From Acidobacteria bacterium RIFCSPLOWO2_12_FULL_66_21 (GTDB taxonomy: Bacteria > Acidobacteriota > Vicinamibacteria > Vicinamibacterales > 2-12-FULL-66-21): a stretch of 64,000 bases of DNA. The translations under genes were made by a program, and so were the position numbers. The DNA lies in contig MELC01000078.1 in NCBI GenBank assembly GCA_001767455.1, positions 1-64,000 on the forward strand, given 5' to 3'. The notes beneath the pieces are model-generated. The model was given only the letters and a program-made list of their open reading frames with translations. It searched no databases and had not been told where the DNA came from. Each line of letters starts with the position of its first letter. The first letter of the stretch is position 1. Positions 2,366-49,392 of this stretch are shown in pieces.

Positions 2366-3079
2366 TTACAGCCGGAATCCTGCCCGCGCCGCGTCGTCAT
2401 GGAACATCTTGACCGTGTCGAGCGAATAGTCATCGAGGTCCTTTCCCACGAGCGCCAGCTTCTTCAGCAGGTCGTTGGTCACAGTGATGATGTGACAGCC
2501 GATCGCATCGGCCTGAAACACGTTCAGCAGCTCTCGAGGACTGGCCCAGATGAGCTCCGCCCGCGGCGCTATCCGGAGCAATTCGACGGCGGCGGACATC
2601 AACGGAACGGGATCCCGCCCGGTGTCGGCGATTCGCCCGGCGAATACGGAGACACAGGACGGCGCCCCGCCAGACACCGCATCCACCACGTGCCGGACTT
2701 GCGACAACGTCATGATGGCGGTGACGTTCACCTTGACCCCGGCCTGGCTCAGCGTCCGGATGAGATCGTAGGCCGGCTGGCGCGCGGTGTTGGTCACCGG
2801 AATCTTGACGTAGACGTTGTCGCCCCAGCTCGCGATCGCCGTCGCCTGCCGTTCCATCTCCGCGAATTCGTCCGAGAACACCTCGAAGGAGACCGGCTTG
2901 TCGGGAATCGCGGCCAGGACCTGCTTCGCGAAGGCGCGATAGTCGGCGACACCTGCCTTGCGCATCAGCGTCGGGTTCGTCGTGAAACCCTTGATGTACG
3001 GCTCGCGCGCCAGGTTGACCATGCCATCGAGCTCGGCGCCGTCGCCGAAGATCTTCACTGTGAGATTCGTCATGTTCAT
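2366..3079 (-). CDS. Transaldolase / fructose-6-phosphate aldolase family protein
   Basis: Short (237 residues) TIM-barrel transaldolase of the FSA/TalC size class. The GFTTNPTL motif (about 31-38) and YVKIPVTN (K92, expected Schiff-base lysine) are both intact. Such short transaldolases recur in O-antigen and capsule clusters, where they may rearrange sugar phosphates to supply precursors. The real start is the ATG of MNMTNLTV; the longer upstream reading frame is low-complexity and overlaps the divergent gene. The divergent small membrane gene starts about 100 bp away, so the intervening space probably holds both promoters. Confidence 0.88.
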   Translation of the reverse strand: MNMTNLTVKIFGDGAELDGMVNLAREPYIKGFTTNPTLMRKAGVADYRAFAKQVLAAIPDKPVSFEVFSDEFAEMERQATAIASWGDNVYVKIPVTNTARQPAYDLIRTLSQAGVKVNVTAIMTLSQVRHVVDAVSGGAPSCVSVFAGRIADTGRDPVPLMSAAVELLRIAPRAELIWASPRELLNVFQADAIGCHIITVTNDLLKKLALVGKDLDDYSLDTVKMFHDDAARAGFRL

Positions 3080-3178
3080 AGGTTGGGAGCCAGCAGCAGG
3101 CCGGCGTCCGGCTTCGGCCGGGTCAGCCGTCCTCCTGTCGAAATCGAACGCAGAACCGTTAGTATGGTGTTCAGGACC

Positions 3179-3487
3179 ATGAGCACTGGCTGGTACGTCA
3201 TTGGCGTCCACGGTCTCTGGGTAATCGCGCTTGCCATCATCGTCGCCGCGGTGGGCTGGCACGATTGGCGCCGAGACGAGCTGGGGCGGCCCAGATCGCG
3301 GTACCTCGGGCTGGCGTCTTTCCAGCTGCCGCTCAACCTGGGGCTGCTGCTGATCGCACTCAGTTTCGCCCTGATGACGACCTCTGCATGGTGGGAGCGT
3401 ACCATCTGGGCTGCTTTGGGAGTCTTCTTCGGACGAGGCGCCTTCGCCGCAGGCCAATCGTGGCGCCGCGACGATAGACGGACCTGA
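3179..3487 (+). CDS. Small membrane protein of unknown function
   Basis: Predicted 102-residue protein on the plus strand. It has an N-terminal hydrophobic helix (WVIALAIIVAAVGW), a short charged loop (WRRDELGRPRSR), then two more hydrophobic stretches (LNLGLLLIALSFALM and IWAALGVFFG), so about three membrane segments. I do not recognise a family. It diverges from the transaldolase and ends 13 bp before the convergent surface-carbohydrate gene. An in-frame ATG at 3164 is an alternative start. The amphipathic hydrophobic pattern supports a real gene, but there is no recognised homology. Confidence 0.55.
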   Translation: MSTGWYVIGVHGLWVIALAIIVAAVGWHDWRRDELGRPRSRYLGLASFQLPLNLGLLLIALSFALMTTSAWWERTIWAALGVFFGRGAFAAGQSWRRDDRRT

Positions 3488-3500
3488 GCCCTCGGCTCGT

Positions 3501-5513
3501 TCATGTCGTGACCGTTCCTGCGCAAGGGTGCGACGCCGGTGGATCGAAGACATCGAGGGCCCGATCCAACTGCGCGCCAAGTGGTTGATCGCTATCGCCA
3601 AATACCTGCTCAATCAACGCCGGCCAGGCTTCCCGCTTCCGCCGACATTCGTCCGAATTCTCCCGGACGTGTTGGATCGCGGCGCCAAGTTCGGAGGCGT
3701 TGTGGACGATGAACATGCCTTCTTCGTACTGTGCCAGTGATACGGCACCGTACGTCGACGGATTATCCATGACGATCGGCATGATGCCGAGCACAATCGC
3801 CTCGAACGCGATCATCGAGCCGACGCAGACCATGCAGCTGGCGGCCGCTACGTAGTCGTACATGTTCGCGGAGACGGGCATGAGCTCGGCACGCGCCTGG
3901 CCCAGCGCATCGATCGCGCCACGGAGCGCGTCGTCGCCGTGCGGCCGGTTGGGATGCGTGCGAATGATCACGCGCAGCGTCGCCAGGTCAGGGCAGCCTC
4001 CGATGAGCGAGCCGAACAGGGCCTCAGTGTCAGATTCCACAATGGCAAGCGCAACGATGATGAGAAACACGTCCGCAGCGAGCCCCAAGCGTCGGCGAAT
4101 CGCCTGGCGCGGCGCCATGACGCGGCGGTAGGTGAAGAGTGGCCCGTAACGCTGGGGGCCGCACACCACGACCCGATCTTTCGGAAAGCCGCCGCGAGCG
4201 ACGTTGGCGGCGAGTGCCGGTCCCAGAGCGACGATGCCATCAGGTAGCGGCCTGGCCACTCGCGAAGGCGGCTGCTGCAAAGACTCCTCAACCTCCTGCG
4301 GTGTGAACTGCATGGGCAGGTGCCGTTCCGCGTATGGAAAGTGGTGAAACCCGATTGCTTTGGCCTTGCCCGCGAGTCCCTGCAGCAATGCCGATTCGAG
4401 CGGTTGAGACTCACCCCGATACAGCAGGAGGCGCGGATGAACAGTGTCGGCAGCTTTCGCCAGGGCCCGAGCGACGAGCGCGTTCTGAAGCGGTTCGTGG
4501 GCTGACAGTGAACGGCTGATCTCGGCGCCAACGAGATGGCCCACGTCGCAACCTGCGAATGGCACGTGCAGGTGCGGGCGCATGGTCTTCTCGAAGCGCA
4601 ACACCCGGCGAAAGTAGCGCGGAGACAGTACGGTCAGCAAGTCCCAAAGGGACAGTGAACGCTGCAACGGCACCAGGTGCAGTGACGCGCACGCATCGCG
4701 AACCGCGCGTGTGTGCCGCCACAGGACGGCTGGTTGCGCGAGCCACACGAAGTATCCATCAAGGCGCGCGTCCGCCGCGTTCGTGAGGAACCGATCGCGG
4801 GGCTGTGAAGTGGAGGCGTCTGCCCACCACGTCGGAAACACGCTGAACACCCAGCGACCGCTCCCGGTCCGCGGCGGCTTCGCGCGGCCGCCCAGCCAAC
4901 GAGTGAAGACATGGATGGACAGAAACCGCCCCAGTGCCCGAGCCGCGATGAGCGAATGTCGGAGCAACGGGCGCTCCTCCATCCGTTGCGGCCCTGGCGC
5001 TGGTCTGGCATCCAGCATGCGCCAGCGCGGCCGCGTCTCGAGCGTGGCGCGAAGTGTGTCGGCCAACACACGTTCCCGGATGCTGCACCAGACTTCGTCG
5101 TAGCCGTCGGTCTCGGCTATCGCGTTCAACAGCGCCAGGCGATAGAGCTGGCCGATCAGGGGTCCGCGGTATGGCCCCTTCTCCGACGCCTCGAGGTGCC
5201 ACCACGCATTGCCGTGACGCTCCTGGAGGAGCTCGAACAAGGTCTCGCCGCCGAGCGCGAGTCGGGGCAGCGTTGCCCCGAGGCGCACCACGAATTCACC
5301 CACTGACGCATGTGCCTGAGCAGCCAACCGCGCGGCATCGACGACACGACAGCCTGGCAGCTTGCGCAACTGCTCCGGGTGGCGCCAGCGAAACCAGTCG
5401 GGACTTCCGCCGAGCAGAAACAGGTCCCATCGGTCTCCGCCGACAGCCGAGGCGGACGCCTGGTCGAACGCGGGACTGGAGTAATCGTCGACGATCAGCA
5501 GCCGGTGTCTCAC
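3501..5513 (-). CDS. Large surface carbohydrate biosynthesis protein (TIGR04326-like)
   Basis: A 670-residue soluble protein resembling the 'surface carbohydrate biosynthesis protein' families described from Leptospira-type O-antigen loci. The C-terminal half looks like a GT-B/capsule-synthesis fold: GFHHFPYAERHLP, then RVVVCGPQRY, IRTHPNRPHGDD, and a late SMIAFEAIVLGIMPIVMD segment like the donor-binding loop of KpsC/KpsS and polysialyltransferase-type proteins. The start is the GTG at 5513, whose GTGA overlaps the stop of the upstream methyltransferase by 4 bp; the longer frame upstream lies inside that gene. Probable glycosyltransferase; acceptor and donor unknown. Confidence 0.72.
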   Translation of the reverse strand: MRHRLLIVDDYSSPAFDQASASAVGGDRWDLFLLGGSPDWFRWRHPEQLRKLPGCRVVDAARLAAQAHASVGEFVVRLGATLPRLALGGETLFELLQERHGNAWWHLEASEKGPYRGPLIGQLYRLALLNAIAETDGYDEVWCSIRERVLADTLRATLETRPRWRMLDARPAPGPQRMEERPLLRHSLIAARALGRFLSIHVFTRWLGGRAKPPRTGSGRWVFSVFPTWWADASTSQPRDRFLTNAADARLDGYFVWLAQPAVLWRHTRAVRDACASLHLVPLQRSLSLWDLLTVLSPRYFRRVLRFEKTMRPHLHVPFAGCDVGHLVGAEISRSLSAHEPLQNALVARALAKAADTVHPRLLLYRGESQPLESALLQGLAGKAKAIGFHHFPYAERHLPMQFTPQEVEESLQQPPSRVARPLPDGIVALGPALAANVARGGFPKDRVVVCGPQRYGPLFTYRRVMAPRQAIRRRLGLAADVFLIIVALAIVESDTEALFGSLIGGCPDLATLRVIIRTHPNRPHGDDALRGAIDALGQARAELMPVSANMYDYVAAASCMVCVGSMIAFEAIVLGIMPIVMDNPSTYGAVSLAQYEEGMFIVHNASELGAAIQHVRENSDECRRKREAWPALIEQVFGDSDQPLGAQLDRALDVFDPPASHPCAGTVTT

Positions 5514-6526
5514 CGCTCGACGTTGGGTTCGGAAACCGGACGCTGGAAGACGCACCGGAGGTGCGAGCTGAGGCGGTGCTCGCGCAGGAACCTCTGAAAT
5601 GCCTCCCGGGTTGTCGAATCCGCCGCGGCCAACGTGCGCGCGAACCGGTCCGTGACTGGGGTCGGTTGCTCCAGGCACCTGTTGCGCACGATATCGATGT
5701 CGAGTTCACCCGGTGTTGACACGTCGACGACGTTGAGGCCCGCGCGCGCCGCGAACGCCGACACCGCTCCGACAGAGGGGAAATTCAGGTGCTGCGGCGG
5801 CGTAATCGAGCGTGATTCCGCGCCCAGCACCTGCAGGTCGAAGCCGGAGATCGTCAGCGTCGTCACGAGCGCAAGGCCGCCCGGCCTCAGCAGGCGCTTG
5901 CAGGCGCTCAAGAACGCGCCGGGGTCGAAGACGTGCTCGACGACCTCGAACGCCGTCACGAGATCGAATTCGAACTCGCCGTCGCCGACGGATTCGACCC
6001 ATCGTTCCACGGTCCCGAATCCGTGGCCGCGACAGACTGTCGCAAGCAGCGCGTCTGGCTCAATCGCGGTCAGCACCCACGAAGGGTGGATCGCCGCGAG
6101 CTCCAGAAGGAACAGACCATATCCGGCACCGACATCGGCGACACGTACTCGACCCGCGAAGCCGTGACGCTCGGCCACGTCAGCGGTGACGCGCGCACGA
6201 GGCCGGAACATTCGCTCACGACGAGCCGCGGCGGTTTCTTTATAGAAATGGGTGCTCCAGAATGCCACCGCGTCCGAGTTGGCGGCGAATTCGACAAGGT
6301 CGGCGGGGGACGGTCTGGGGCCGGCGAAGAGCGATCCACAGGCGCGGCACCACCGGTATGGAAACCCGTGTTTCTCGAAGGCGGCTTCGCCGTCGTTGCT
6401 GCCGCAGAATCCGCAGGAGACATCGACAAACGATGCCCGTTTGGCCGCGACGCGGTCCGCATCACGTCTCAGACGCACGAAGAATTCATCGAGCAGCGGC
6501 TTCGGTCGGATATCGGCTTCACGCAT
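5510..6526 (-). CDS. Zinc-motif SAM-dependent C-methyltransferase-like protein
   Basis: A 338-residue class I methyltransferase. It has an N-terminal CGFCG...CRACG zinc-type site (about residues 28-54), as in sugar C-methyltransferases, then a normal SAM motif I (VADVGAGYG), an acidic post-motif (IEPD) and EVVEHVFDPG (motif II region). The C-terminus shares FDLQVL and REHRLSSH with the paralog at 7405-8409. It probably methylates a nucleotide-linked sugar. The start is the ATG of MREADIRPKP; the ATG-proximal DIRPKPLLDEFFVRL segment matches the paralog's N-terminus, which supports it. It is translationally coupled (GTGA) to the next gene. Confidence 0.85.
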   Translation of the reverse strand: MREADIRPKPLLDEFFVRLRRDADRVAAKRASFVDVSCGFCGSNDGEAAFEKHGFPYRWCRACGSLFAGPRPSPADLVEFAANSDAVAFWSTHFYKETAAARRERMFRPRARVTADVAERHGFAGRVRVADVGAGYGLFLLELAAIHPSWVLTAIEPDALLATVCRGHGFGTVERWVESVGDGEFEFDLVTAFEVVEHVFDPGAFLSACKRLLRPGGLALVTTLTISGFDLQVLGAESRSITPPQHLNFPSVGAVSAFAARAGLNVVDVSTPGELDIDIVRNRCLEQPTPVTDRFARTLAAADSTTREAFQRFLREHRLSSHLRCVFQRPVSEPNVER

Positions 6527-6606
6527 GGGATGTCTGGATGGGGTCTCAGCGCGCGTCTCGACGGCCGAGCGCAGTGGGGTGTGGCGTAACGGCTGCGTGT
6601 GCGGGC

Positions 6607-7392
6607 TCAACGGCCCCTGGCGGCGATCGCCGCGGCGCGCTGCAGCGCGCGGCACGAATCGCCGAGGAACAAGATGTCGGTGCCCAGGGCGATGAACTGG
6701 TAGCCGGCCGCGATCGTTGCCGTGATGTCCGACGCGGCTCGATCTGGATGGACCAGGTGGATTCCGGCCGCCAACCCTCGCGCTCGCGTTGCGTCGAGCA
6801 CGCGCTTCTTCGCGCCCGCAATGTCGGGATGATCGAGCTGCCCTGGCAAGCCCATCGACATCGAGAGATCGTACGGACCGATGAAGGTGCCGTCGATCCC
6901 GTCCACCTCGAGTATCTTCTCGATGTTGCGGACGGCGTCGACATGTTCGATCTGCACGATCAGGAGCGTGGAATCGTTCGCGTGCTCGACATACTCGGCG
7001 AACCGCTCGCCATATCCCTGGGCACGCGCCAGGCCGACGCCTCGGCCGCCGAGCGGAGGGTACTTCACGGCTCGTACGGCGAGTTCTGCATCGGCGCGAG
7101 AATTGACCATGGGGATCAGCACGCCGGCTGCGCCGGAATCGAGGGCGGCCTTGGCACGCACGGGATCATTCCACGCGAGACGCACGAGCGGTGCGGCCCC
7201 GGCGTTCTCGATGGCCGGCAATAATCGCAACACCTCATGGTTGTCGATCGCGGTGTGCTCAGTTTCGATGACGATCCATTCGTAACCTGCGGACGCGAGG
7301 ATCTCCGCGATCGACACGTGCGCCATCGACATCCATGATCCGATGGTGACCTGACCGGCCTTGAGCTTTGCTTTAATCGCGGACGCGAGCAC
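6607..7392 (-). CDS. HpcH/HpaI-family class II pyruvate aldolase
   Basis: A 261-residue metal-dependent aldolase of the HpcH/HpaI (2-keto-3-deoxyglucarate or 4-hydroxy-2-oxo acid aldolase) family. Diagnostic segments are VIETEHTAID (about 41-50), GVLIPMVNSRADAE, the YPPLGGRG loop, and IVQIEHVDAV with GTFIGPYDLSMSMG near the end. Family members reversibly join pyruvate to an aldehyde, giving 2-keto-3-deoxy acids. The neighbours include a KdsB-like cytidylyltransferase, so I infer a synthetic role that makes a 2-keto-3-deoxy sugar acid for the glycan. It sits 12 bp after the degenerate methyltransferase gene. Confidence 0.9.
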   Translation of the reverse strand: MLASAIKAKLKAGQVTIGSWMSMAHVSIAEILASAGYEWIVIETEHTAIDNHEVLRLLPAIENAGAAPLVRLAWNDPVRAKAALDSGAAGVLIPMVNSRADAELAVRAVKYPPLGGRGVGLARAQGYGERFAEYVEHANDSTLLIVQIEHVDAVRNIEKILEVDGIDGTFIGPYDLSMSMGLPGQLDHPDIAGAKKRVLDATRARGLAAGIHLVHPDRAASDITATIAAGYQFIALGTDILFLGDSCRALQRAAAIAARGR

Positions 7393-7404
7393 GATGACTC
7401 CTTG

Positions 7405-8409
7405 CTAGCACCGCCGCACCACCAACCGGGCAAACGACGCCAGCCGATGCCGCTGTAGAAATTCCTGAAAGTCCTCCGCGGCGCTGGGGCCACGTGCGAG
7501 CAATCGGCGCACCATCCCGGGCCAATTCGCCGTCGGGTCCGCCGCAACAGCGCGCCTGACTTGTTCGACGTCGAACAGGCCCGGTGTGCTGCATTCGAGC
7601 ACCTCCCACGCCGGCCCGCCGAAGAGCGAGAGCATGCCATCGATCGATAGGACATTCAGCTTGTCTGGCGGAGAGAAGGTCGGCGCTTGCTCCCACAGCA
7701 CCTGCAGGTCGAATCCATCCGCATTCGACGCGGTCAGGAACATCAGTCCTCCGGGCGGCAACACTCCCGCAACCGCGCGGAATAGCGCCGGCGCATCGGC
7801 CGCACGGTCGACCATGTCGAAGGCGGTCACGAAATCCACTGGGCTCACCACGCCGATCGACGAGGTCCGCAGGGGCCGCACGTCGATCTTGGACGATGAT
7901 GACCCCATCTCGATATCGGCCAGCCATCCACCGGCGGTCATACGCTTGCCTTCGGCCGACAGCTCCTCGATGACGGGGCCCCCGTAGGGACTCAGGTCGA
8001 GCCCCGCGACGGCGGTCGATGCGTACTCCGCCAACCCTTCGATCACCCACTCGGCACGCGGACGCGCAAGCTTCTCCCGTCGCGTCGCTTCGGTGCTGGG
8101 CCACACCTGGTCGCGCCAGTAGCGGGCTGCCGGCGACGTCCTGTAGAACGAGACCAGCGCTTCTTCGTCGGGGCGAGGCGACACGAAGACCGAGCCACAC
8201 GTCGCGCACTGTCGATATGTCGCGCCAAACCGTTCAAATGCGACAGCCGTCTCCGCGCGGCTGCAGCCGGGACAGGTGACGTCGTGCAGCTGCGCTCGCG
8301 CCCAGAATGCGCGTACGTCCCGCTCGAGACGGACGTAGTATTCGGCCAGCAGGTTCTGCGGCCGAATGTCGGCGTCGACGAGATCCTGAAGGGAAACGAC
8401 TGTCTTCAT
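7405..8409 (-). CDS. Methyltransferase paralog with degenerate SAM site
   Basis: A 334-residue paralog of the protein at 5510-6526. The zinc-type motif is kept (CPGCS...CATCG), as are the N-terminal ADIRPQNLLAEYYVRL block, FDLQVL and the C-terminal QRHRLASF block. Where the paralog has the glycine-rich SAM loop VADVGAGYG, this protein reads AVAGLDLSPYGG, and the acidic residue that follows is not in a recognisable motif. The reading frame is open and the gene is coupled by ATGA overlap to the oxidoreductase upstream, so it looks translated. It may be a non-catalytic partner or an altered-specificity enzyme. Confidence 0.78.
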   Translation of the reverse strand: MKTVVSLQDLVDADIRPQNLLAEYYVRLERDVRAFWARAQLHDVTCPGCSRAETAVAFERFGATYRQCATCGSVFVSPRPDEEALVSFYRTSPAARYWRDQVWPSTEATRREKLARPRAEWVIEGLAEYASTAVAGLDLSPYGGPVIEELSAEGKRMTAGGWLADIEMGSSSSKIDVRPLRTSSIGVVSPVDFVTAFDMVDRAADAPALFRAVAGVLPPGGLMFLTASNADGFDLQVLWEQAPTFSPPDKLNVLSIDGMLSLFGGPAWEVLECSTPGLFDVEQVRRAVAADPTANWPGMVRRLLARGPSAAEDFQEFLQRHRLASFARLVVRRC

Positions 8410-9440
8410 AAGCACGCTCCTCGCGCGGCATGCAGCGTGCGGGAGTCTCGATAGACCGCGTCGACGATCTCCATCACGCGTAACGCGTCGTTGGCCGTGC
8501 TCTCCGTCACGGGGATGTCGTTCAGAATGCAACCGACGAACTGATCGACCTGGGTGCTCCAGGACGGATCGGTGTCGTAGTACGTCAGTTCCTCGCGCGG
8601 ATTCCCCAGGGCCGACGCCTCCCCGCTCTGTGGCCGGCGGCCGACGAGCAGCGTCTCACGCCCGTAGCTCCCGGTCTTCGACAGGAGCCCGGAGACCACA
8701 AGGTACCCGCGCTCCAGTCCGAGCTCGAGTCGAAAGGTGTGCTTCCACGAGGTGGCCGATGAATGCAGGTGCGCAATCTGCCCCGCCTTGTTGCGCAACA
8801 ACACCATCGCGTTGTCCTCAACCGGGATGGGCCAATGCGTCGTGCCGACGAATCCGACCACCTCGTCGAAGTCGCCGCAGAAGAACCGGAACAGGTCCAG
8901 CATGTGGATGCCCTGATCGAGCAGGATGCCACCGCCACCCTGCTCAGGCTGGTTCCGCCAGGACCGCTCGAATCCCACGCCCCCTGACTTCCCGTACACA
9001 CCACGTACGGTCAGAATCCGGCCCAGGGCGCCGCTCTCGATGAGCGATTTCGCATCCGTGATTCCCGGATGATATCGATGGTTGAACCCGAAAATGAGCT
9101 TCGCGAGAGGATTGCGCCGGTCGGCCTCGACGATGCGCTGGATGTCGCCGAGGTTGCGACCCGGCGGCTTCTCGCTGAACACATGACAGCCTCGGTCGAG
9201 CGCATCGACGACCGCGTCCGGAGTCACGTGGTTTGGCGTGCAGACGAACAGCAGGTCGACGCCGGCGTCGAGCAGCGCCCCGTAGGTGGAAAACAGCGGA
9301 ACATCGGACGGCAGCTTCGCGACGGGGGACGGGTCGGCCACCCCAACGAGCTGCAGGGCCTCGTGCTCGTTGATATTCTGTCGGCGAATCTCGCCCATGT
9401 AGCCATATCCCACAATCCCCGCTCGAAGGTGCCGTGCCAT
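8406..9440 (-). CDS. Gfo/Idh/MocA-family oxidoreductase
   Basis: NAD(P)-dependent sugar oxidoreductase, 344 residues. The N-terminal Rossmann motif is IVGYGYMG, the family EKP motif is present (HVFSEKPPGRN), and the C-terminal domain has a GGGILLDQGIHMLDLF segment with the usual catalytic His. An AGGA-like ribosome site lies about 6 bp before the ATG (taggacctgaa). It ends inside the next gene's start (ATGA overlap) and starts 8 bp after the cytidylyltransferase. It may oxidise or reduce a keto-sugar for the CMP-activated product of this block. The substrate is not deducible. Confidence 0.88.
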   Translation of the reverse strand: MARHLRAGIVGYGYMGEIRRQNINEHEALQLVGVADPSPVAKLPSDVPLFSTYGALLDAGVDLLFVCTPNHVTPDAVVDALDRGCHVFSEKPPGRNLGDIQRIVEADRRNPLAKLIFGFNHRYHPGITDAKSLIESGALGRILTVRGVYGKSGGVGFERSWRNQPEQGGGGILLDQGIHMLDLFRFFCGDFDEVVGFVGTTHWPIPVEDNAMVLLRNKAGQIAHLHSSATSWKHTFRLELGLERGYLVVSGLLSKTGSYGRETLLVGRRPQSGEASALGNPREELTYYDTDPSWSTQVDQFVGCILNDIPVTESTANDALRVMEIVDAVYRDSRTLHAARGACL

Positions 9441-9448
9441 TTCAGGTC

Positions 9449-10234
9449 CTACAAGATTGGTTGGTGAATGCGCGCGTGCAGTCCGCGTTGTGTCTCGTCG
9501 TCTCGCAGAAGTTGCTCGATCACCTCGACGTCGGCTGGTCGATCCACCCCGTAGGTCGGACAGTCGACCACCACACCCGTGATCCTGTACCCGTGCTCGA
9601 GCAGGCGGAGCATGTCGATCGATTCGGCCCGCTCGAACGGCGTGGCGGGAAGCGACTCGTACGTCCGCAGCAGACTGGCTCGGAACCCCATGATGCCCGT
9701 CTGCCGATACACCGGGCAGTCCACGTCCATCCGGTAGTGCGGAATCGGTGAGCGGCTCAGGAACATCACCTCTCCCGCCTGACTGCACGCTGCCTTCACG
9801 ATGTCAGGGTTGTCCCGATCCGCCCGGCTCTCGAGCGGCGACAGCAGGTTCGTGCACGTGATCGACGGATCGGCCAGCAGGGGCGCGGCAATGCGCTCAA
9901 CGGCTTCGGGCAGCAGCAACGGCTCGTCGCCCTGCACCATAACCACGATCTCGCCGGTGAGATGGCGCATGGCCTCCGAGAGGCGACCCGTGCAGCGCTC
10001 GTGCGTGTCGGCGGTCATGACGGCGCGTCCGCCGAAACCGACGATGGCGTCCCGAATGCTCTCGTCACACGTCGCGACGACGACGTCGCTGGCGCCCTTC
10101 GCAAGCAACGCGCGTCGACGGACGTGCTCGACGAGCGGCAGGCCGGCGATGGACACGAGGGGTTTTCCCGGGAAACGCGACGAGGCCATGCGAGCCGGAA
10201 TGACGACAACGAAAGTGTCCATGCGATTGATCAT
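9449..10234 (-). CDS. KdsB-like cytidylyltransferase (CMP-sugar synthetase)
   Basis: A 261-residue CTP:sugar-acid cytidylyltransferase of the KdsB (CMP-Kdo synthetase) family. The N-terminal VVIPARMASSRFPGKPL matches the IPAR..S.R.PGKPL signature; MVQGDEPLL is the metal-binding acidic motif and QTGIMGFR is the usual Q-x-G-I segment. It would activate a 2-keto-3-deoxy acid as the CMP-sugar. The pathway clue is the HpcH aldolase three genes downstream. The chosen start (MINRMDTF) gives a 4-bp ATGA overlap with the SDR; MDTF four codons in is the alternative. Confidence 0.9.
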   Translation of the reverse strand: MINRMDTFVVVIPARMASSRFPGKPLVSIAGLPLVEHVRRRALLAKGASDVVVATCDESIRDAIVGFGGRAVMTADTHERCTGRLSEAMRHLTGEIVVMVQGDEPLLLPEAVERIAAPLLADPSITCTNLLSPLESRADRDNPDIVKAACSQAGEVMFLSRSPIPHYRMDVDCPVYRQTGIMGFRASLLRTYESLPATPFERAESIDMLRLLEHGYRITGVVVDCPTYGVDRPADVEVIEQLLRDDETQRGLHARIHQPIL

Positions 10235-10998
10235 TGCGGCAGGACGCCGCAATCCACGTTGATGCACTGCCCCGTCACGGCCGACGCGGACGGCGACGAG
10301 AGCTGCACGCATATCGCCGCCACTTCGACGGCGGAGGGCAGGCGGCCGAGCGCGCTTTGGGTCCGCGCAAAGTCCCGCAGATATTCGTGGGCCTCTTGAC
10401 CGCGCGGCGGAGCCAAGGGGTCGGCCAGCGCTTGCAGCAGACCCTCCGTCTCGACGTAGACCGGGCAGACGGCATTGACGCGAATCCCTCGCGGTCCCAG
10501 TTCCTTGGCGAGAGCCTGCGTGAGACCGTTCACGCCGAACTTCGCGGCGCAGTAGGCGGAGTTGTTCGCGCTGCCACGCTTGCCCGCGAGGCTGGACACG
10601 TTGACGATCGCGCTGCCGGAACGAAGGTGCGGCAGCGCAGCCTGGCAGGCGAACAGCACGCCGGTAAGGTTAGTGTCCACCATCTCACGCCAGAATGTCT
10701 CGTCGATCGCCTCGATCGGGCGCCATCCCGAAACGCCCGCGTTGTTCACCAGTACGTCGAGACCACCGGCCCAGCCCGCCACGCGCGCCATCGCGTCTTC
10801 GAGTTGCGACCGTCGCGTCACATCACACGTCATGTGGATCGCTCGCGACCCCAGTTCCGCAGCGAGCCCCGAGTCACGGCGTGACAGAATCACGACGCGG
10901 TAGCCCGCCTCGTGGAATGCGCGCGTGATACTTGCGCCGATGCCACGGCCGCCACCGGTGACGACGGCGGCACGAGGATCGGAGGTCGCTCGGGTCAT
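10231..10998 (-). CDS. Short-chain dehydrogenase/reductase
   Basis: Classical SDR of 255 residues: cofactor loop TGGGRGIG (about 15-22), NNAGVSG, catalytic Ser in IVNVSSLAG, YCAAK (Tyr and Lys), and the C-terminal TGQCINVDCG. It probably reduces or oxidises a keto-sugar intermediate in the CMP-sugar block and is coupled by 4 bp to the cytidylyltransferase. The acidic residue after beta-2 is replaced by SRR (VILSRRDS), which suggests NADP(H) preference. Substrate unknown. Confidence 0.9.
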   Translation of the reverse strand: MTRATSDPRAAVVTGGGRGIGASITRAFHEAGYRVVILSRRDSGLAAELGSRAIHMTCDVTRRSQLEDAMARVAGWAGGLDVLVNNAGVSGWRPIEAIDETFWREMVDTNLTGVLFACQAALPHLRSGSAIVNVSSLAGKRGSANNSAYCAAKFGVNGLTQALAKELGPRGIRVNAVCPVYVETEGLLQALADPLAPPRGQEAHEYLRDFARTQSALGRLPSAVEVAAICVQLSSPSASAVTGQCINVDCGVLPQ

Positions 10999-14082: not shown

Positions 14083-15242
14083 ATCACCGGATGGGAAGAT
14101 GCGCCTGCAGCCATGACGTCAGACCAGACGCTGCGATACGCCGTCACCATGTGACCCAGCCCGAAGTTGGCCGTGATGCGTTCCCGCGCTGCCGTCTGCC
14201 GAGCACGCCAGTTCAGCGGGCTGGTCAGTCGGACCGCGATGGCCTCACGGATGGCTCCGGCCAGGCGCGACGGATCGGAGGGGGGCACGACCCAGCCCGT
14301 CTCCCCGACGATAAACGGCCCTGCCCCAACGGCAGTTACGACCGCCGGGACTCCGCAGGCCATCGCTTCGACAGTGACGTTGCCAAAGGCCTCGCCGGAA
14401 CTCGACAGCACATGCACATCAAGGGCGTTCATGATGGCCGGTATATCGCGTCGGGTTCCGAGCAGGCACATTCGGTCCTCGACACCGGCAGCGCGCAGCA
14501 ACGCGCGAAGGTCCGCGTTCTCTGGTGTCATACCCGCACCGACCAGCACGCAGCGCCACTGCCCCGGTCCGTCCTGCGCCAGGACCTTCAGCCCGCCGAT
14601 CAGGTTGGCGTGGTCCTTCTGCACATCCCACCGGCTCACCATGCCGAGCAACACTTCATCGGGGTGGATGTGCAGCTCACGCCGTGTGCGCTCGCGCAAC
14701 GATGCGTCAGGCGTGAACTCCGACAAATCGATACCGTTCGGAATGACAACCATCTTCGTGCGGACATAACCGAGATCCGCGTGCACTCGTCTCGCCATTT
14801 CCGAGCAACAGATGATGCGCGCCGGGATGAACCGCGAGAGTGCCCCTGACAGCCGCGCGATGGTTCGAGTCGACCGACTGATCATCCCCCGCTCGAGATT
14901 CGAACAGTGCACACCCCACACGACGCTCCGGAGCCCTGCAAGCCGAGCGGCAAGACCGCCAACCAGATCGGCGTGGTACATCCAGGTCTGGACGATGTCA
15001 GGGTTGGCCTCCCGCAACCGTCGATGCAGCAGACGCAGCCCCCGGGTCGAGACGTGCCCCCGCGGGAGGTTGAGCGCGTCGCACCTGACACCGGCAGCCG
15101 TGAGACGACCGCCATAGAACCCGAGGTCATCGAGCAGCGAGATGACGTGATGCGTATTCTGATCGTCGGCCTTGACGAGTCTGTACAGCACCGCCTCGGC
15201 GCCTCCCGCACCGAGTCCGGTAATCACATGACAGACTCTCAC
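14076..15242 (-). CDS. Glycosyltransferase family 4
   Basis: GT-B retaining glycosyltransferase, 388 residues. The N-terminal VRVCHVITGLGAGGAE is the typical GT4 acceptor-side opening. The C-terminal donor site reads EAFGNVTVEAMACGVPAVVT with the E-x7-E spacing, after PNGID and a VSRWDVQKDH segment. It transfers a sugar from a nucleotide donor onto the growing lipid-linked glycan at the cytoplasmic face. The GTG start overlaps the SIS gene's stop (GTGA); the longer in-frame extension lies inside that gene. Confidence 0.9.
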   Translation of the reverse strand: MRVCHVITGLGAGGAEAVLYRLVKADDQNTHHVISLLDDLGFYGGRLTAAGVRCDALNLPRGHVSTRGLRLLHRRLREANPDIVQTWMYHADLVGGLAARLAGLRSVVWGVHCSNLERGMISRSTRTIARLSGALSRFIPARIICCSEMARRVHADLGYVRTKMVVIPNGIDLSEFTPDASLRERTRRELHIHPDEVLLGMVSRWDVQKDHANLIGGLKVLAQDGPGQWRCVLVGAGMTPENADLRALLRAAGVEDRMCLLGTRRDIPAIMNALDVHVLSSSGEAFGNVTVEAMACGVPAVVTAVGAGPFIVGETGWVVPPSDPSRLAGAIREAIAVRLTSPLNWRARQTAARERITANFGLGHMVTAYRSVWSDVMAAGASSHPVMC

Positions 15243-15865
15243 GGGGTCGGATCGGGGCTGGCGCTCGATGAGGCAGTCCGTTCCCACTTGTTGCTGACCT
15301 GCTGCAGCCGCGGATGCGCCACCAGCAGATGCCACACCAGCGCCTGAAAGGACTCGGTATGGGGCGTCACGTGCGCGGGATTGACCGTTGGCACGACGAT
15401 GCAGGCATCGGCCACGCTGGCGGTGTACCCACCATCCCGGCCAACGATGCCGAACACCGCCGATCCACACTCATGCGCGTGCTGGACGGCCCGAACAATG
15501 TTGACGCTGATGTTGCGCTCGATGCTCCCCCCGCCGACCGAGAACACGAAGACGGCATCGGCCGGGCCCAGCCGGCTCACGGCCAGCCACGCGGCAAACG
15601 TGGTGTCCCAGCCCTCGTCATTCGTCCGGGCAGTCAGCTCCGAGACATTGTCGACAGGCGAGTACGCCTCGATGCCGGCAAGCTTGCGGAAGTCGTTGAC
15701 GGCATGCGACGCATGGCCGGCGCCGCCGCCGACGCCCAGGAGGAACAACCGCCCTCCGCGCTGGCGAAGAGACACCAGTGAATCGACCATGCGCTCGATG
15801 CCTGCGACGTCAATCGCCTGCAGAATCTGAATGGCCTCTCGGACGTATTGCTCTGAAAACGTCAT
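15239..15865 (-). CDS. SIS-domain phosphosugar isomerase (GmhA-like)
   Basis: A 208-residue single SIS domain protein similar to sedoheptulose-7-phosphate isomerase GmhA. The phosphosugar-binding parts are LFLLGVGGGAGHASHAVNDF and VFSVGGGSIERN. GmhA opens the ADP/GDP-heptose route, but no HddA/HldE partner is visible here, so heptose synthesis cannot be claimed from the window; another aldose/ketose phosphate is possible. It begins 30 bp after the dehydrogenase stop and is coupled downstream to a GT4. Confidence 0.82.
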   Translation of the reverse strand: MTFSEQYVREAIQILQAIDVAGIERMVDSLVSLRQRGGRLFLLGVGGGAGHASHAVNDFRKLAGIEAYSPVDNVSELTARTNDEGWDTTFAAWLAVSRLGPADAVFVFSVGGGSIERNISVNIVRAVQHAHECGSAVFGIVGRDGGYTASVADACIVVPTVNPAHVTPHTESFQALVWHLLVAHPRLQQVSNKWERTASSSASPDPTP

Positions 15866-15895
15866 GACGTGTGAGCTCCAATCAGCAGAAGGCGG

Positions 15896-16852
15896 TCATA
15901 TCACTCTCGCGTCGGGGGCCAGTGTCCCGTCAAGGAACTGCAGCGCCTTGGCGACACACTCGCGCTCCATTGCCGCGCGCGTTTCGACGGTCAACGTGCC
16001 GGCATGCGGTGTCAGCACCACTTTGTCGAGATCGCACAACGGACCGGCATACGGCTCCTGCTCGAACACGTCGAGACCCGCGCCAGCGAGATGGCCTGAG
16101 ACCAGCGCGTCGTAGAGCGCGACCTCATCAATCATGCCGCCGCGCGCAACGTTGATCACAATCGTCCCGCGCTTCATGGCTGCAAGCTCCTCGCGGCCGA
16201 AGTGCACCGGTTCGTCCGACGAACGGGCGGCATGAATGGAGATCACATCGCAGTCGGCGATCAATTTGTCGAGAGGTACGAGATTGACTCCAAGCGCCCC
16301 GGCCGACGCCGCTTCCACGGCAGGGTCCGCCGCCGAGATTCGACAGCCGAATGGTTTGAGCAGTTCGGCTACGCGCCGCCCTATCCGGCCGAAGCCCACA
16401 ATACCGACGTGACGCCCGCCCAACAAATGGGCCTCGATACGGGCCCACTCGTTGTTCCGCGCGCGGGCGGCTTGGCGCGGCAGGTTCCGGCACAGCGACA
16501 ACATCATGGCCAGTGCCAGCTCGGCGACCGCGGCCGCAGGCGGCAGTGGCGTATTGAGCACGACGATGCTACGAGCGCGCGCCGCGGCGAGATCGATGCT
16601 GTCGACGCCTACGCCACAACGGCTGATGCAGCGCAGAAACGGAAGACACTCCAATGTCGCCGCATCGTACGGTTCGACGCCGGCGATGACGACCGTGGCC
16701 GCACGGCCCTGGTCCAGTAGTTGCGCCGTCGTGATGCGCTTACCCGTGGTGTTGATGCGATGCGGACGGCCGCTCGCTTCCAGTAATCGAAGCGGCTCAC
16801 GGTCGCCCTCGGCAAACGTCGAGAGCGTGATAAAGATGAGATCAGGGGTCAA
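15896..16852 (-). CDS. D-isomer-specific 2-hydroxyacid dehydrogenase
   Basis: A 318-residue NAD-dependent dehydrogenase of the SerA/PdxB type. The Rossmann motif is VGIVGFGRIGR (about residues 148-158). The catalytic residues are Arg in INVARGG, Glu in FEQEPYAGP and His in LTPHAGT. It may oxidise or reduce a 2-hydroxy/2-keto acid, for example a glyceric or lactyl substituent or a sugar acid. It starts directly at the stop of the frameshifted TylF gene. The local SIS, dehydrogenase and TylF grouping suggests a decorated sugar, but the substrate is inferred only. Confidence 0.87.
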   Translation of the reverse strand: MTPDLIFITLSTFAEGDREPLRLLEASGRPHRINTTGKRITTAQLLDQGRAATVVIAGVEPYDAATLECLPFLRCISRCGVGVDSIDLAAARARSIVVLNTPLPPAAAVAELALAMMLSLCRNLPRQAARARNNEWARIEAHLLGGRHVGIVGFGRIGRRVAELLKPFGCRISAADPAVEAASAGALGVNLVPLDKLIADCDVISIHAARSSDEPVHFGREELAAMKRGTIVINVARGGMIDEVALYDALVSGHLAGAGLDVFEQEPYAGPLCDLDKVVLTPHAGTLTVETRAAMERECVAKALQFLDGTLAPDARVI

Positions 16853-20889: not shown

Positions 20890-22344
20890 TCAGATTAGCT
20901 TCTGCAATCGTGTGGTGGACTGACGAGTGCCGTGGAAGAGATCTACGGCTGCCCGCGTCTTGCGCTTCAGGTCATGGAACGAGCGCACGGCCACAACCGA
21001 CCTGGCCATGTACTTCGGGCGGAAGTAGAACTTGCGCGTGTGGTGGTCAGCCAGGGCGAACAGCTCCTCCTCCGAAAAATTCTCCGTCCACATTTTCGGC
21101 CGGAAGCCTCTTTCAATCGACCCGAGCGGATCGCGTGAGAACTCTCGCCAGTAGTCTGGGAACAGCCCTGAGCGCAGCCCCATCTCGTAGAGTTCCGTGG
21201 CCGGCATCGGGGTCATCCGCGAGAACTGTACGGTCGTGGGCTCGAGCTCGCAGGCCAGGCGGAACGTCGCCTGCACGTCCTCGAGAGTTTCTCCGGGATT
21301 TCCGATGATGAAGTAGGCCATCGTATTGATGCCGTTGTCCCTGCACAGCTTGAAGGCTCGACGAGCCTGGTCGGTCGTGATGTTCTTCTGCAGAATCTTC
21401 AGCACACGGTCTGTTCCGGCCTCCACGCCAATGTGCAAGCGCTGACAACCGCTTTCCCTGAACTTCTCCAGCATCCCCTGGTCGAGATTGTTGACGCGCG
21501 CACGGGCGCCCCAGGGCATCCCCACGTGCAGGTCGATGAGCGCCTGGGAGATCTCCATCGACGCCTGCTTCTTCACGTAGAACGTATCGTCGACGAAGAA
21601 CATCTCCTTGATGCCGATCGACTTCGCTTCGAGCATCTCCGCAGCAACGCTTCGGCCCGATCGCCACGTGGGCTTGGATCCGCGTTCGCTGCAGAACACA
21701 CACATGTAGGGACAACCCTTGGCGGTGACCATGGTCCCCACAGGGCGGTTGGCCGTCATGATCGAGTAGTACTTCTGGAACGGGAGCAGTGTCCTATCGG
21801 GAAACGGCAGGTCGTCCAGCGTCAACGTCGTCGGGGTCTGCGGATTCGAGTGGACGTCCTGATTCTCGTCTTTGTACGAAAGGCCCGGCACCTGATCGAA
21901 ACGTCGGCTGCCCTCGAGCTGCTTGACGAGGATCGAGAACGAGCTCTCGCCCGGTTTAGTGATGACGAAATCAACGTGTTTGAGGCGAATGGTCTCCTGG
22001 GTGTAGATGTCCACGTGGGGACCTCCGAGGCACACGGGACAGTCCGGGTCGATCTTCTTGACCAACGCGGCCGTCATCATGACGTCGACCATCGTGAACG
22101 TCAAGGCCGTCAAGCCGACGATGTCGGGCCGCCAGTCGGCAATCGCAGCCTTGAGCTGCTCGTAGGACAGCCGGTCCACCTGCGAGTCGATCACGCGGAT
22201 CTCATGATCCCCCTGGGTACGCAAGTACGAGGCGATATAGAGCAGTCCCAGCGGTGGCTGGAAGCTCGAGTTTTCTGTGATTTCCTTCCCGACTTGCGTC
22301 GTCAGCTCATTGAAAGCCGGGGGATTCACAAATAGGACTCTCAT
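20890..22344 (-). CDS. B12-binding radical SAM enzyme
   Basis: A 484-residue protein with an N-terminal cobalamin-binding Rossmann domain (about 1-140; LFVNPPAF start, VGLTALTFTM, CLGGPH) and a radical-SAM domain with the CPYMCVFC (CxxxCxxC) cluster motif at about residues 210-217. VEAGTDRVLKILQKNI and FIIGNPGETLEDV are typical strands. Family members methylate or rearrange unactivated carbons; in glycan islands a sugar or lipid C-methylation is plausible, but the substrate is unknown. It stands alone with 141 bp upstream, which may hold a promoter, and precedes the GNAT gene. Confidence 0.9.
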   Translation of the reverse strand: MRVLFVNPPAFNELTTQVGKEITENSSFQPPLGLLYIASYLRTQGDHEIRVIDSQVDRLSYEQLKAAIADWRPDIVGLTALTFTMVDVMMTAALVKKIDPDCPVCLGGPHVDIYTQETIRLKHVDFVITKPGESSFSILVKQLEGSRRFDQVPGLSYKDENQDVHSNPQTPTTLTLDDLPFPDRTLLPFQKYYSIMTANRPVGTMVTAKGCPYMCVFCSERGSKPTWRSGRSVAAEMLEAKSIGIKEMFFVDDTFYVKKQASMEISQALIDLHVGMPWGARARVNNLDQGMLEKFRESGCQRLHIGVEAGTDRVLKILQKNITTDQARRAFKLCRDNGINTMAYFIIGNPGETLEDVQATFRLACELEPTTVQFSRMTPMPATELYEMGLRSGLFPDYWREFSRDPLGSIERGFRPKMWTENFSEEELFALADHHTRKFYFRPKYMARSVVAVRSFHDLKRKTRAAVDLFHGTRQSTTRLQKLI

Positions 22345-46376: not shown

Positions 46377-47546
46377 CTACAAGTGTACCGGCACGGCGGC
46401 GTCGGCAAACCGCTTGACCAGGAGCTCGTGGTCCAGCGCCACGTCGGCAAGTCGCGCGACGACAATGTCGGCCGCCCGGCCGTCGCCGTAGGGATTACGA
46501 AGTCCCTCGAGCGTCGCCCGAAATTCGGGGGCGACTGCGCGGACGATACCCGCTGTGATCTCATCCTTGTAGTACCCCACGTCGATGACGTTCTTCGCGC
46601 GCACGCGGCCCGCCTGCCTCGTGCCGATGTTCACCACCGGCAGCGCGAACGTGGGCGCCTCTATCAACCCGCTGGAGGAGTTTCCGACCATCGCCGCGGC
46701 ACGCGACATGATGCTGAAATATCCGCGCGTGCCGAAATTGCCGACGAAGGACGCCAGGGGATGCGTCGCGAGGAACTCGTCAATCAGCCGGCGGACCAGC
46801 CTGCCACCGGTGTCAGCATTGGGTTGCGTGAAGACGACGGGAGCGCCGATGGAATCCAGTGCGGCCAGCAGCTCACCTACCTGCCACTCCGTGCGGTCGA
46901 ACTCGAGCGTCACGGGATGAAACGTGCACAACAGAAACGGACGATCGACGCGTACCCCAAACTGGGCCGCGATTTCGTCGGGCGTCATCAGCGGGATCGT
47001 CTTGACGTTGTCGAGCCCCGGCGCACCGCAGATGGTGATGCGCCAGGACTCCTCGCCGAGCTGCGCCACACGCCGTGCGGCGTCGTCCGTTGCGACGAAG
47101 TGAAGGTGGCTCAGTTTCGTCATCGAGTGCCGTAGCGCATCGTCAATCGCGCCCGCCGTCAGCTCGCCGCCATGAATGTGCGCGACGGGTATCCGGAACG
47201 GCAGCGCCGCAAGGGCTGCAGCGAACATCTCGAAACGATCGCCGAGCACCATGAGCAAATCCGGCTGCAGTCGCGCAAACGCCTGTGCATAGCCAATGAC
47301 GCCCAACCCGATCGACTTCGACACCGCCTCGGGATCGTCCGACGACAACAGCATCTGCACTCGCTCGGCAACCGTGAACCCATCGGCCTCGATCTCACGC
47401 ACGCTCCAGCCGAACTCGGGACACAAGTGCATGCCTCCGACGACGAGTTGAAGACGCAGCCGGGAGTCAGCCGACAGACGCGTCAGAATCGGCCGGTACA
47501 AGCCGTAGTCCGAGCGCCCGACCGTCACGACGGCGACGGTCCTCAC
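46377..47546 (-). CDS. legG: LegG/NeuC-type hydrolysing NDP-sugar 2-epimerase
   Basis: A 389-residue UDP-sugar 2-epimerase of the hydrolysing NeuC/LegG branch. The N-terminal VAVVTVGRSDYGLYRPIL (the GRSDYG mark), LMVLGDRFEMFAAALAAL, HIHGGELTAGAIDDALRHSM, and VVGNSSSGLIEAP motifs are intact. It releases the 2-epimerised aminosugar (the 6-deoxy-ManNAc-type precursor) for LegI. It overlaps LegI's stop by 4 bp. Confidence 0.94.
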   Translation of the reverse strand: MRTVAVVTVGRSDYGLYRPILTRLSADSRLRLQLVVGGMHLCPEFGWSVREIEADGFTVAERVQMLLSSDDPEAVSKSIGLGVIGYAQAFARLQPDLLMVLGDRFEMFAAALAALPFRIPVAHIHGGELTAGAIDDALRHSMTKLSHLHFVATDDAARRVAQLGEESWRITICGAPGLDNVKTIPLMTPDEIAAQFGVRVDRPFLLCTFHPVTLEFDRTEWQVGELLAALDSIGAPVVFTQPNADTGGRLVRRLIDEFLATHPLASFVGNFGTRGYFSIMSRAAAMVGNSSSGLIEAPTFALPVVNIGTRQAGRVRAKNVIDVGYYKDEITAGIVRAVAPEFRATLEGLRNPYGDGRAADIVVARLADVALDHELLVKRFADAAVPVHL

Positions 47547-48604
47547 GCCAGCATCTCCAGCGTGAACACCGTTCCGCGGGCGACATCTATCCGGACCGCG
47601 CGTCCGAGGACATGGTCACGCATGCGCGGCGGAAGCCCGTTGCCCGGACGCTGGATGGCGACGAGCGCCGGCGTCAGCTTCTCGCCGGCTGCGATATCGC
47701 GCGCGGCGACGAGGCTCTTGCGCGCGACCGTGGCGGTCTCCCGTTCGCGTTCCGACGGGACTTTGCGCCCGTCGCCGAGCGCAGCTTCAACGAGTCGAAC
47801 GTCGGCGACGAGGCGCGCGAAGGCACCCGGATCGAGCGACGCCGCGTGATCCGGGCCGGGGAGGCTGCGGCTCACCGTGAGGTGTTTCTCAATGACACAG
47901 GCCCCAAGCGCTACTGCGGCGATCGCGGTCTCGAGTCCCGTCGTGTGGTCGGAGTACCCGACCGGCAGCCCGAATTCCTGCCGCATCACGTCGATCACGC
48001 GCAGATTCGCGTCGCGTGGATCGGCCGGGTAGGCGCTCGTGCACTGCAGCAGCGCGATCGTCTCGAGTCCCTCCGATCGAATCGCGGCAATTGCCTCGCA
48101 GACTTCCTCGAGCGTGGCCATGCCGGTCGACACGAGCATCGGCTTGCCCGCGCGCGCGATGAAACGCAGCAGAGGCAGGTTCGTCAGATCGCCTGACGAA
48201 GTCTTGAAGGCGGGGACGCCGAGTTCGTCGAGCAGAGCCGCGCTCCCTTCATCGAAAGGCGTCGACAGGAACACGATGCCCTGCCGTTGGGCGTGGTCTC
48301 GCAGCTGGCGATAGGCCTCCCGCGGCAATTCGAGCCGTCGCAGCATCTCGAGCTGCGATTCGCCGGAATCGGCCGTGTCTCTCTGATACCAGGCTTTCGG
48401 CGCGTTGGGGCTCGCGAGTTGATCCGCACGGAAGGTCTGGAACTTGACCGCGTCGGCGCCGGCCTCGGCGGCCGCGTCGACGAGCTTCACGGCGAGATCC
48501 GGCGAACCGTTGTGGTTGACTCCGGCCTCTGCGATCACGAAACAGGGAGACCCCGCCCCAATCGACCGGGTGCCGATCGAGATCGAGCTCACCACGCGGT
48601 CCAC
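47543..48604 (-). CDS. legI: LegI/NeuB-type nonulosonate synthase
   Basis: A 353-residue PEP-dependent synthase with the NeuB barrel (FVIAEAGVNHNGSPDLA, AGADAVKFQTFRADQL, LGACVIEKHLTVSR) and a C-terminal antifreeze-like SAF domain (LVAARDIAAGEKLTPALVAI then QRPGNGLPPR). It condenses PEP with the LegG product to make a nonulosonic acid such as legionaminate. The ATG at 48604 overlaps the SDR by 16 bp; a GTG at 48592 would give the GTGA overlap typical of this island and is equally likely. Confidence 0.95.
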   Translation of the reverse strand: MDRVVSSISIGTRSIGAGSPCFVIAEAGVNHNGSPDLAVKLVDAAAEAGADAVKFQTFRADQLASPNAPKAWYQRDTADSGESQLEMLRRLELPREAYRQLRDHAQRQGIVFLSTPFDEGSAALLDELGVPAFKTSSGDLTNLPLLRFIARAGKPMLVSTGMATLEEVCEAIAAIRSEGLETIALLQCTSAYPADPRDANLRVIDVMRQEFGLPVGYSDHTTGLETAIAAVALGACVIEKHLTVSRSLPGPDHAASLDPGAFARLVADVRLVEAALGDGRKVPSERERETATVARKSLVAARDIAAGEKLTPALVAIQRPGNGLPPRMRDHVLGRAVRIDVARGTVFTLEMLA

Positions 48605-49392
48605 CCGCCGTCTACAACCAGATTCTGGCCGGTCACATACGCCGACAGATCACTCGCGAGATACGCCACGGCGCCTTTCACGTCTTCTTCGACGGCCATG
48701 CGACCGAGTGGCGTGCGCGATACGTAGCGCTGGTGAAAGGCATCGGGCTGGTTGCGCCAGATGCCGCCCGGCGAGATGGCATTCACCCGAACGCGGGGCG
48801 CGAGCAGCGTCGCCAGCTGCCGTCCGAGCTGGAGCAGACCGCCCTTCGAGGCGCCATAGCCCGCCGGATTGTTCATCGACGTGCCGTCGTAGAGACGCAT
48901 GTCCGGCCCGGCGAGACCGTAGATCGATGACACGAAGATCACCGAGCCGTGCCCGGACGCGATGAGAGCCTCTCGGGCTTCTTGAACGATGACGAAGGCC
49001 GACGTCAGGTTGACCCGTAGCGCGGCATCCCACGCCGGCACCGTCTGGTGCTCGAAGGAAACAGCCCAGCCTGGCATGGTCGTCGTGCCGACATACGCGG
49101 CGCAATGAACAATGACGTCGAGCCGTCCGAGTTCCGAAATCCCTTTTCGTACGGCCGCACGTGTCGCGTTCTCGTCGGCAAGATCGCAAGCCGTGGCGAT
49201 CACGTGGCCGCCGGTCGTCCCAGCCAATTCGTGTGCGCCCTGGCGACAGCGGTCGTCGTCACGATCCATGATGGCTGCCGACGCGCCCAGTTCCAGCAGG
49301 GTCTCGGCCGCGGCCATCCCCACGTGTCCCGCGCCACCCACCACCAGCGCCGCGCGATTCCGCAGATCCGAGAGTTCTCTGACGCTGCGCAC
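48589..49392 (-). CDS. PtmA-like short-chain dehydrogenase
   Basis: A 267-residue SDR: VVGGAGHVGMAAAETL loop, HCAAYVG, VSSIYGL (catalytic Ser), YGASKGG (Tyr/Lys), and YVTGQNLVVDGGW. The GGAGHVG loop and its place between LegF and LegI match PtmA of Campylobacter legionaminate loci. It is predicted to help make the aminosugar phosphate precursor (role by context). The GTG start at 49392 shares one base with LegF's TAG. Confidence 0.9.
   Translation of the reverse strand: MRSVRELSDLRNRAALVVGGAGHVGMAAAETLLELGASAAIMDRDDDRCRQGAHELAGTTGGHVIATACDLADENATRAAVRKGISELGRLDVIVHCAAYVGTTTMPGWAVSFEHQTVPAWDAALRVNLTSAFVIVQEAREALIASGHGSVIFVSSIYGLAGPDMRLYDGTSMNNPAGYGASKGGLLQLGRQLATLLAPRVRVNAISPGGIWRNQPDAFHQRYVSRTPLGRMAVEEDVKGAVAYLASDLSAYVTGQNLVVDGGWTAW

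Follow-up and report, generated by a model that had tools for sequence, protein, structure and literature searches.

A conserved, probably non-methylating methyltransferase paralog encoded beside a Gfo/Idh dehydrogenase in a putative acidobacterial sugar-acid gene module

The window analyzed here, a stretch of 64,000 nucleotides from Acidobacteria bacterium RIFCSPLOWO2_12_FULL_66_21, encodes a paralog of zinc-ribbon methyltransferases (MTd) that is very likely beyond using SAM in the usual manner and has been kept for another role. It is highly probable that the protein neither depends on SAM nor methylates and that it is functional. Its best explanation, on which our judgement is evenly poised, is that of a conserved pseudo-methyltransferase serving the Gfo/Idh dehydrogenase step of a CMP-sugar-acid pathway, a partner that we infer from the shared locus; that MTd is specifically a helper of this step is a plausible but tentative refinement. 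The ranking of the readings discussed below (helper of the Gfo/Idh dehydrogenase, then prozyme of the canonical paralog MTc, then protein with a new ligand) rests on gene order and six loci, i.e., on six known members, five of which come from a single class.

Gene structure and motif changes

The MTd frame runs uninterrupted through 334 codons from an ATG at 8409 to a stop at 7405-7407, and its start shares the four bases ATGA with the stop of the adjacent gene, both of which had been read correctly in an initial annotation of this DNA (Table 1). The start codon is immediately preceded by GAGGAG, and the position-specific G+C content of the gene is coding-like and near the values of the adjacent genes. 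The proposal that both ends of the protein are common to its paralog encoded at 5510 (MTc) also holds, with 36% identity across 331 residues, almost the full length. In Pfam, MTd reached 27.4 bits for Methyltransf_23, barely above the cut-off of 27, and this family matched all five MTd members scanned at an E value of 0.01. A Pfam methyltransferase match at this gene does not mean a methyltransferase, which should be taken as a warning by annotators.

The canonical proteins used for comparison were 22 homologues, two of them from viral contigs; distant methyltransferase matches in three genomes with MTd (G012, G434, and G537; 25-31%), a broken match in G591, a partial match in G538, and weaker profile matches lie outside this set. 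The initial annotation had described SAM motif I as replaced, and in the alignment its middle glycine is present in all 22 canonical rows and in none of the six MTd rows, the loop DVGAGYG of MTc having LDLSPYGG as its counterpart in the window. The same distribution was found for E194 and H198 of MTc in the motif FExxEH (22/22 versus 0/6). The acid after beta-2 is missing from five of the six members, and the Verrucomicrobia row has an E in this column beside a gap. The zinc-type N terminus, by comparison, is kept as had been claimed, with four cysteines in the five rows covering the region and in the separately inspected piece from G537 (L047). Together with the full-length architecture and the TPG and Q...L motifs, these cysteines are common to MTd and the canonical family. 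The N-terminal extension of MTd follows the pattern MKxVVSxxDL, in which G537 has E instead of D. In one MTd subgroup (L019, 11413-12369; L024, 9635-10600), the segment from beta-1 to beta-4 falls short of that of MTc by about 20 residues, a deletion deeper than that in the MTd of the window.

Table 1. Positions of MTd, its sequence features, and neighboring genes in the window
Feature	Position	Strand	Basis
MTd, pseudo-methyltransferase, 334 aa	7405..8409	-	ORF; 36% identity to 5510 protein; member of six-row clade
ATGA, Gfo/Idh stop overlapping MTd start by 4 bases	8406..8409	-	identical overlap in 6/6 loci
N-terminal extension MKTVVSLQDLVD	8374..8409	-	conserved in MTd, none in canonical paralogs; model pLDDT <50
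Zinc-ribbon cysteines C46, C49, C68, C71, kept	8197..8274	-	5/5 MTd rows covering region; G537 separately (L047)
AVAGLDLSPYGG, residues 133-144, replacing SAM motif I	7978..8013	-	alignment with 22 canonical homologues
Residues 198-202, FD...R for FE..EH	7804..7818	-	D198 and R202 in 6/6 MTd, E and H in 22/22 canonical
MTc, canonical paralog, SAM motif intact	5510..6526	-	Methyltransf_23, 59.8 bits; model pLDDT 91.1
HpcH/HpaI-type aldolase	6607..7392	-	family profiles; 5/5 loci long enough have a homologue at most about 2.5 kb downstream of MTd
Gfo/Idh/MocA dehydrogenase, overlapping MTd start	8406..9440	-	Pfam and NCBIfam; synteny; co-occurrence
KdsB-like CMP-ulosonate cytidylyltransferase	9449..10222	-	family profiles; second genome copy

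Distribution and candidate partners

MTd is represented by six members, five among 193 genomes of the class (G000, the genome of the window; G082; G012; G434; G537) and one in a Verrucomicrobia metagenome-assembled genome (MAG; contig L015). The orthologue of G082, which belongs to the same order as the window genome, is 59% identical and that of the MAG 42%, whereas those of G434 and G012 are more distant and that of G537 is split across two contigs, its N-terminal piece lying beside the Gfo/Idh gene and its C-terminal piece elsewhere. Among 288 genomes of the phylum of the MAG, no MTd-grade match was found beyond the MAG itself. No MTd-type protein was found in viral contigs, where none of 29 pattern-matching stretches encoded a relative. 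Across 84,980 species genomes, a DNA-pattern scan, which detects close relatives only, returned 26 stretches, three of which encode relatives (the MTd of L015, on a contig that carries a canonical copy as well, and two canonical homologues). Part of the difference in bit score that separates MTd from canonical rows in the profile search is a product of its design, since four of the class's five MTd genomes contributed to the profile and only G537 did not.

All six loci have the same Gfo/Idh dehydrogenase gene directly upstream of MTd, and in each of them the two genes overlap by ATGA. Moreover, the genomes with a Gfo/Idh match of at least 50% identity and those with MTd are the identical five of the 193. 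In the phylum of the MAG, five of 240 genomes have Gfo/Idh matches at an E value of 1e-70, and the sole match above 50% is that of the MAG carrying MTd. No MTd was found beside the Gfo/Idh relatives of 41-43% identity (L048 and L049, in G097 and on G000:C46). The latter locus (G000:C46:45000-60000) is a second polysaccharide region of the window genome, in which the Gfo/Idh paralog (43%) is accompanied by pieces 67-78% identical to the O-antigen-polymerase-like gene of the window.

Since this dehydrogenase is the fixed companion of MTd, a helper or substrate-holding subunit is the favored explanation. MTd would carry out no methyl transfer and would act as a non-methylating subunit of the Gfo/Idh dehydrogenase encoded upstream; with its retained zinc and C-terminal regions it would keep hold of the sugar-acid substrate or of the keto intermediate, and the conserved flexible N-terminal tail may dock it to the partner. 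Adjacency and overlap of genes can also stem from a common pathway or from stoichiometry instead of contact. Furthermore, an aldolase gene lies near MTd in all five loci that are long enough, so that the HpcH aldolase could be the partner instead.

The initial annotation had considered the 5510 protein as the partner, whereas the gene to which MTd is tied in all loci is that of the Gfo/Idh dehydrogenase. MTd as a prozyme in a heteromer with active MTc, activating it or adding substrate contacts, appears rather unlikely. It would fit the location of both paralogs in one operon, the occurrence of MTc in four of the six MTd genomes, and the retention of the fold with loss of a Rossmann helix, as described for the Trypanosoma brucei PRMT1 prozyme (PMC10211241). 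However, no full-length MTc match was found in G434 (97% complete) or G537 (74% complete), for which reason a strict MTc partner was dropped as the first choice. The reverse dissociation is frequent, as most genomes with canonical homologues have no MTd-type match, e.g., G032, G088, G045, and G006 among others with MTc-type genes, and the MTc of G012 groups with one from Desulfobaccales whose genome also lacks an MTd-type match. Two further loci (L014 and L016) contain homologues of MTc, KdsB, and the 2-hydroxyacid dehydrogenase, with no Gfo/Idh or MTd gene in the stretches read.

The altered cofactor site and its history

A third explanation, which we regard as unlikely, is that MTd recognizes a new ligand, as either an enzyme or a binding protein, in which D198 and R202 (plus K250 in some members) would form an anion-binding site at the former methyl-transfer site and act on a sugar acid without SAM. 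It is consistent with a set of residues (W121, D198, R202, F224, E316, and Q319) that are fixed in the MTd clade but seldom or never found in canonical rows, as well as with the loop form LDx[ST]P[YF], which is common to three of the six members from two phyla: the loop GLDLSPYGGP of the window recurs in the G082 orthologue, and the Verrucomicrobia orthologue has ALDHTPFSAP. In the other three members, however, the loop is not conserved (AQFGAETPP, AQFGVESPR, and LHLGPPVPE), and a comparison across phyla shows the lowest conservation of MTd in its SAM half, with 23% versus 41-53% elsewhere. The corresponding drop in MTc is milder (42% versus 48-62%).

AlphaFold models built from seven-row alignments reached a mean pLDDT of 83.1 for MTd and 91.1 for MTc. 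The closest structures to both are MtmC, TcaB9, and KijD1 (PDB 4rv9, 3ndi, and 5t64), which Foldseek also returned for MTd. The comparison with zinc-motif sugar C-methyltransferases made in the initial annotation was therefore apt with respect to the fold. The sequence identity of MTd to these proteins is 8-13%. MtmC was matched by MTd with a Z score of 20.0 (rmsd 2.6, 233 aligned residues) and by MTc with a Z score of 22.0 (rmsd 2.5, 238 aligned residues). The MTd alignment covers residues 6-266 of the 419-residue MtmC chain, whose C-terminal third domain has no counterpart, and MTc too aligns only with the first two thirds of these enzymes. Only methyltransferase-fold proteins were among the matches listed for MTd.

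The models differ in the helix after beta-2, which comprises residues 159-167 in MTc and is absent from MTd, where residues 162-179 have a pLDDT below 50, as have residues 1-15. A complete SAM pocket formed by shifted residues, which the initial annotation had set as refuting its reading, did not appear in the model, judged by secondary structure, pLDDT, and alignment. It is very improbable that MTd still binds SAM via displaced residues and methylates: the retained fold and the Pfam matches of the members scanned are compatible with such an activity, but the model lacks the helix, motif I and FExxEH are gone in every member, and the acid after beta-2 is gone in all but one.

In a 28-row tree, which includes one partial row (G537) and has long inner branches between the two MTd subgroups, the six MTd rows form one side of a single branch with support of 95/93, and this support remained at 90/85 once the columns of residues 118-205 had been removed. 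MTd thus arose once, from a zinc-ribbon methyltransferase that was ancestral to the canonical paralogs too. For the G012/G434 pair, dN/dS was 0.153 for MTd, compared with 0.134 for HpcH and 0.087 for Gfo/Idh; the KdsB copies, which are far apart in this pair, gave 0.437. These values place MTd under purifying selection, and the gene is not a decaying copy. Loss of conserved catalytic motifs in a sequence under purifying selection is the mark of a pseudoenzyme, and the suspicion voiced in the initial annotation that MTd is one agrees with the lost SAM site, the intact and conserved frame, and the single clade. That MTd is a recently inactivated copy about to disappear, as the missing catalytic motifs might suggest, is scarcely credible and contradicted by a single clade across two phyla with intact frames, a dN/dS of 0.15, invariant residues of its own, and a conserved place in the operon. 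Random decay or a frameshift was ruled out by the single clade, the intact frames, the dN/dS value, and the operon place.

The putative sugar-acid module and known systems

The HpcH/HpaI aldolase gene follows directly after MTd in the window, in G082, and on the Verrucomicrobia contig, and one gene later in G012 and G434; the G537 locus is too short to show it. Homologues of the KdsB-like protein and of the 2-hydroxyacid dehydrogenase are present in most MTd loci, but no KdsB match was found on the 9.5-kb Verrucomicrobia contig. The other KdsB copy of the window genome (G000:C91) is 40% identical. A conserved module (window 2366-10998 and 15239-16852; L015, 1-6750; L017, 8644-15596) comprises genes for a SIS protein, a transaldolase-like protein, the aldolase, a HAD or inositol-phosphatase-like phosphatase, the KdsB-like protein, the Gfo/Idh dehydrogenase, and an SDR. 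It resembles the Kdo pathway, with the HpcH/HpaI aldolase in the place of KdsA. ORF translations of the window also revealed NeuC-, NeuB-, and NeuA-like genes accompanied by an SDR gene (46377-50138), which suggests that the cluster has a second sugar route resembling that of sialic acid, and a cobalamin-type radical SAM protein within the polysaccharide cluster (20890-22344).

The product of the module may be a CMP-activated sugar acid that is as yet undescribed. Judging from gene families, ORF translations read by eye, and general knowledge of the Kdo pathway, the route would include an aldolase, a phosphatase, and a KdsB-like CMP transfer as well as oxidation, C-methylation, and reduction. 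The setting of the proposed Gfo/Idh helper would accordingly be a CMP-activated ulosonic-acid pathway that uses the HpcH aldolase for KdsA, the phosphatase, and the KdsB-like cytidylyltransferase. A bolder and doubtful version would combine these elements: a Gfo/Idh dehydrogenase with an obligate pseudo-methyltransferase subunit, whose cofactor half has eroded and whose methyl-transfer site has become an acid-binding Asp/Arg site, might retain a keto-ulosonic acid after its oxidation and until its C-methylation, the CMP-sugar-acid pathway starting with HpcH and not with KdsA. The analysis also flags a conserved gene module resembling an uncharacterised CMP-ulosonic acid pathway. No literature on the protein or its gene module was found, as judged from titles and the openings of abstracts.

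With MtmC, TcaB9, and KijD1, MTd shares the arrangement of a zinc ribbon ahead of a class I methyltransferase domain, but it lacks their last third, the SAM site, and probably the catalytic-type histidine. TcaB9 entries mutated at H181 and H225, which we take to be the catalytic histidines, were among the structural matches. All six MTd members have R for the histidine of the EH motif, a position tentatively matched to TcaB9 from the ends of the alignment ranges. TcaB9 has been called a C-3'-methyltransferase (PMC9539859). The canonical MTc family, which is unnamed and falls into Methyltransf_23, differs from MTd in the presence of motif I and EH and in the missing N-terminal extension.

Methyltransferase pseudoenzymes are known best in eukaryotes. 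METTL14 of the METTL3-METTL14 RNA methyltransferase is a structural, non-catalytic paralog, but as part of a eukaryotic RNA enzyme it is not known to have the zinc-ribbon sugar enzyme ancestry of MTd. In bacteria, a surface-sugar example whose dehydrogenase neighbor is fixed would offer a small, genetically clear system for the reuse of a dead cofactor enzyme. In T. brucei, the PRMT1 prozyme is a dead paralog without a Rossmann helix that activates the live enzyme, according to a review (PMC10211241). It resembles MTd in being a dead methyltransferase paralog next to an active one and in the loss of a helix from an altered Rossmann fold, and differs in its methyltransferase class and its protein arginine substrate, whereas the steadiest neighbor of MTd is a dehydrogenase. 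This prozyme is the nearest described working principle that we found.
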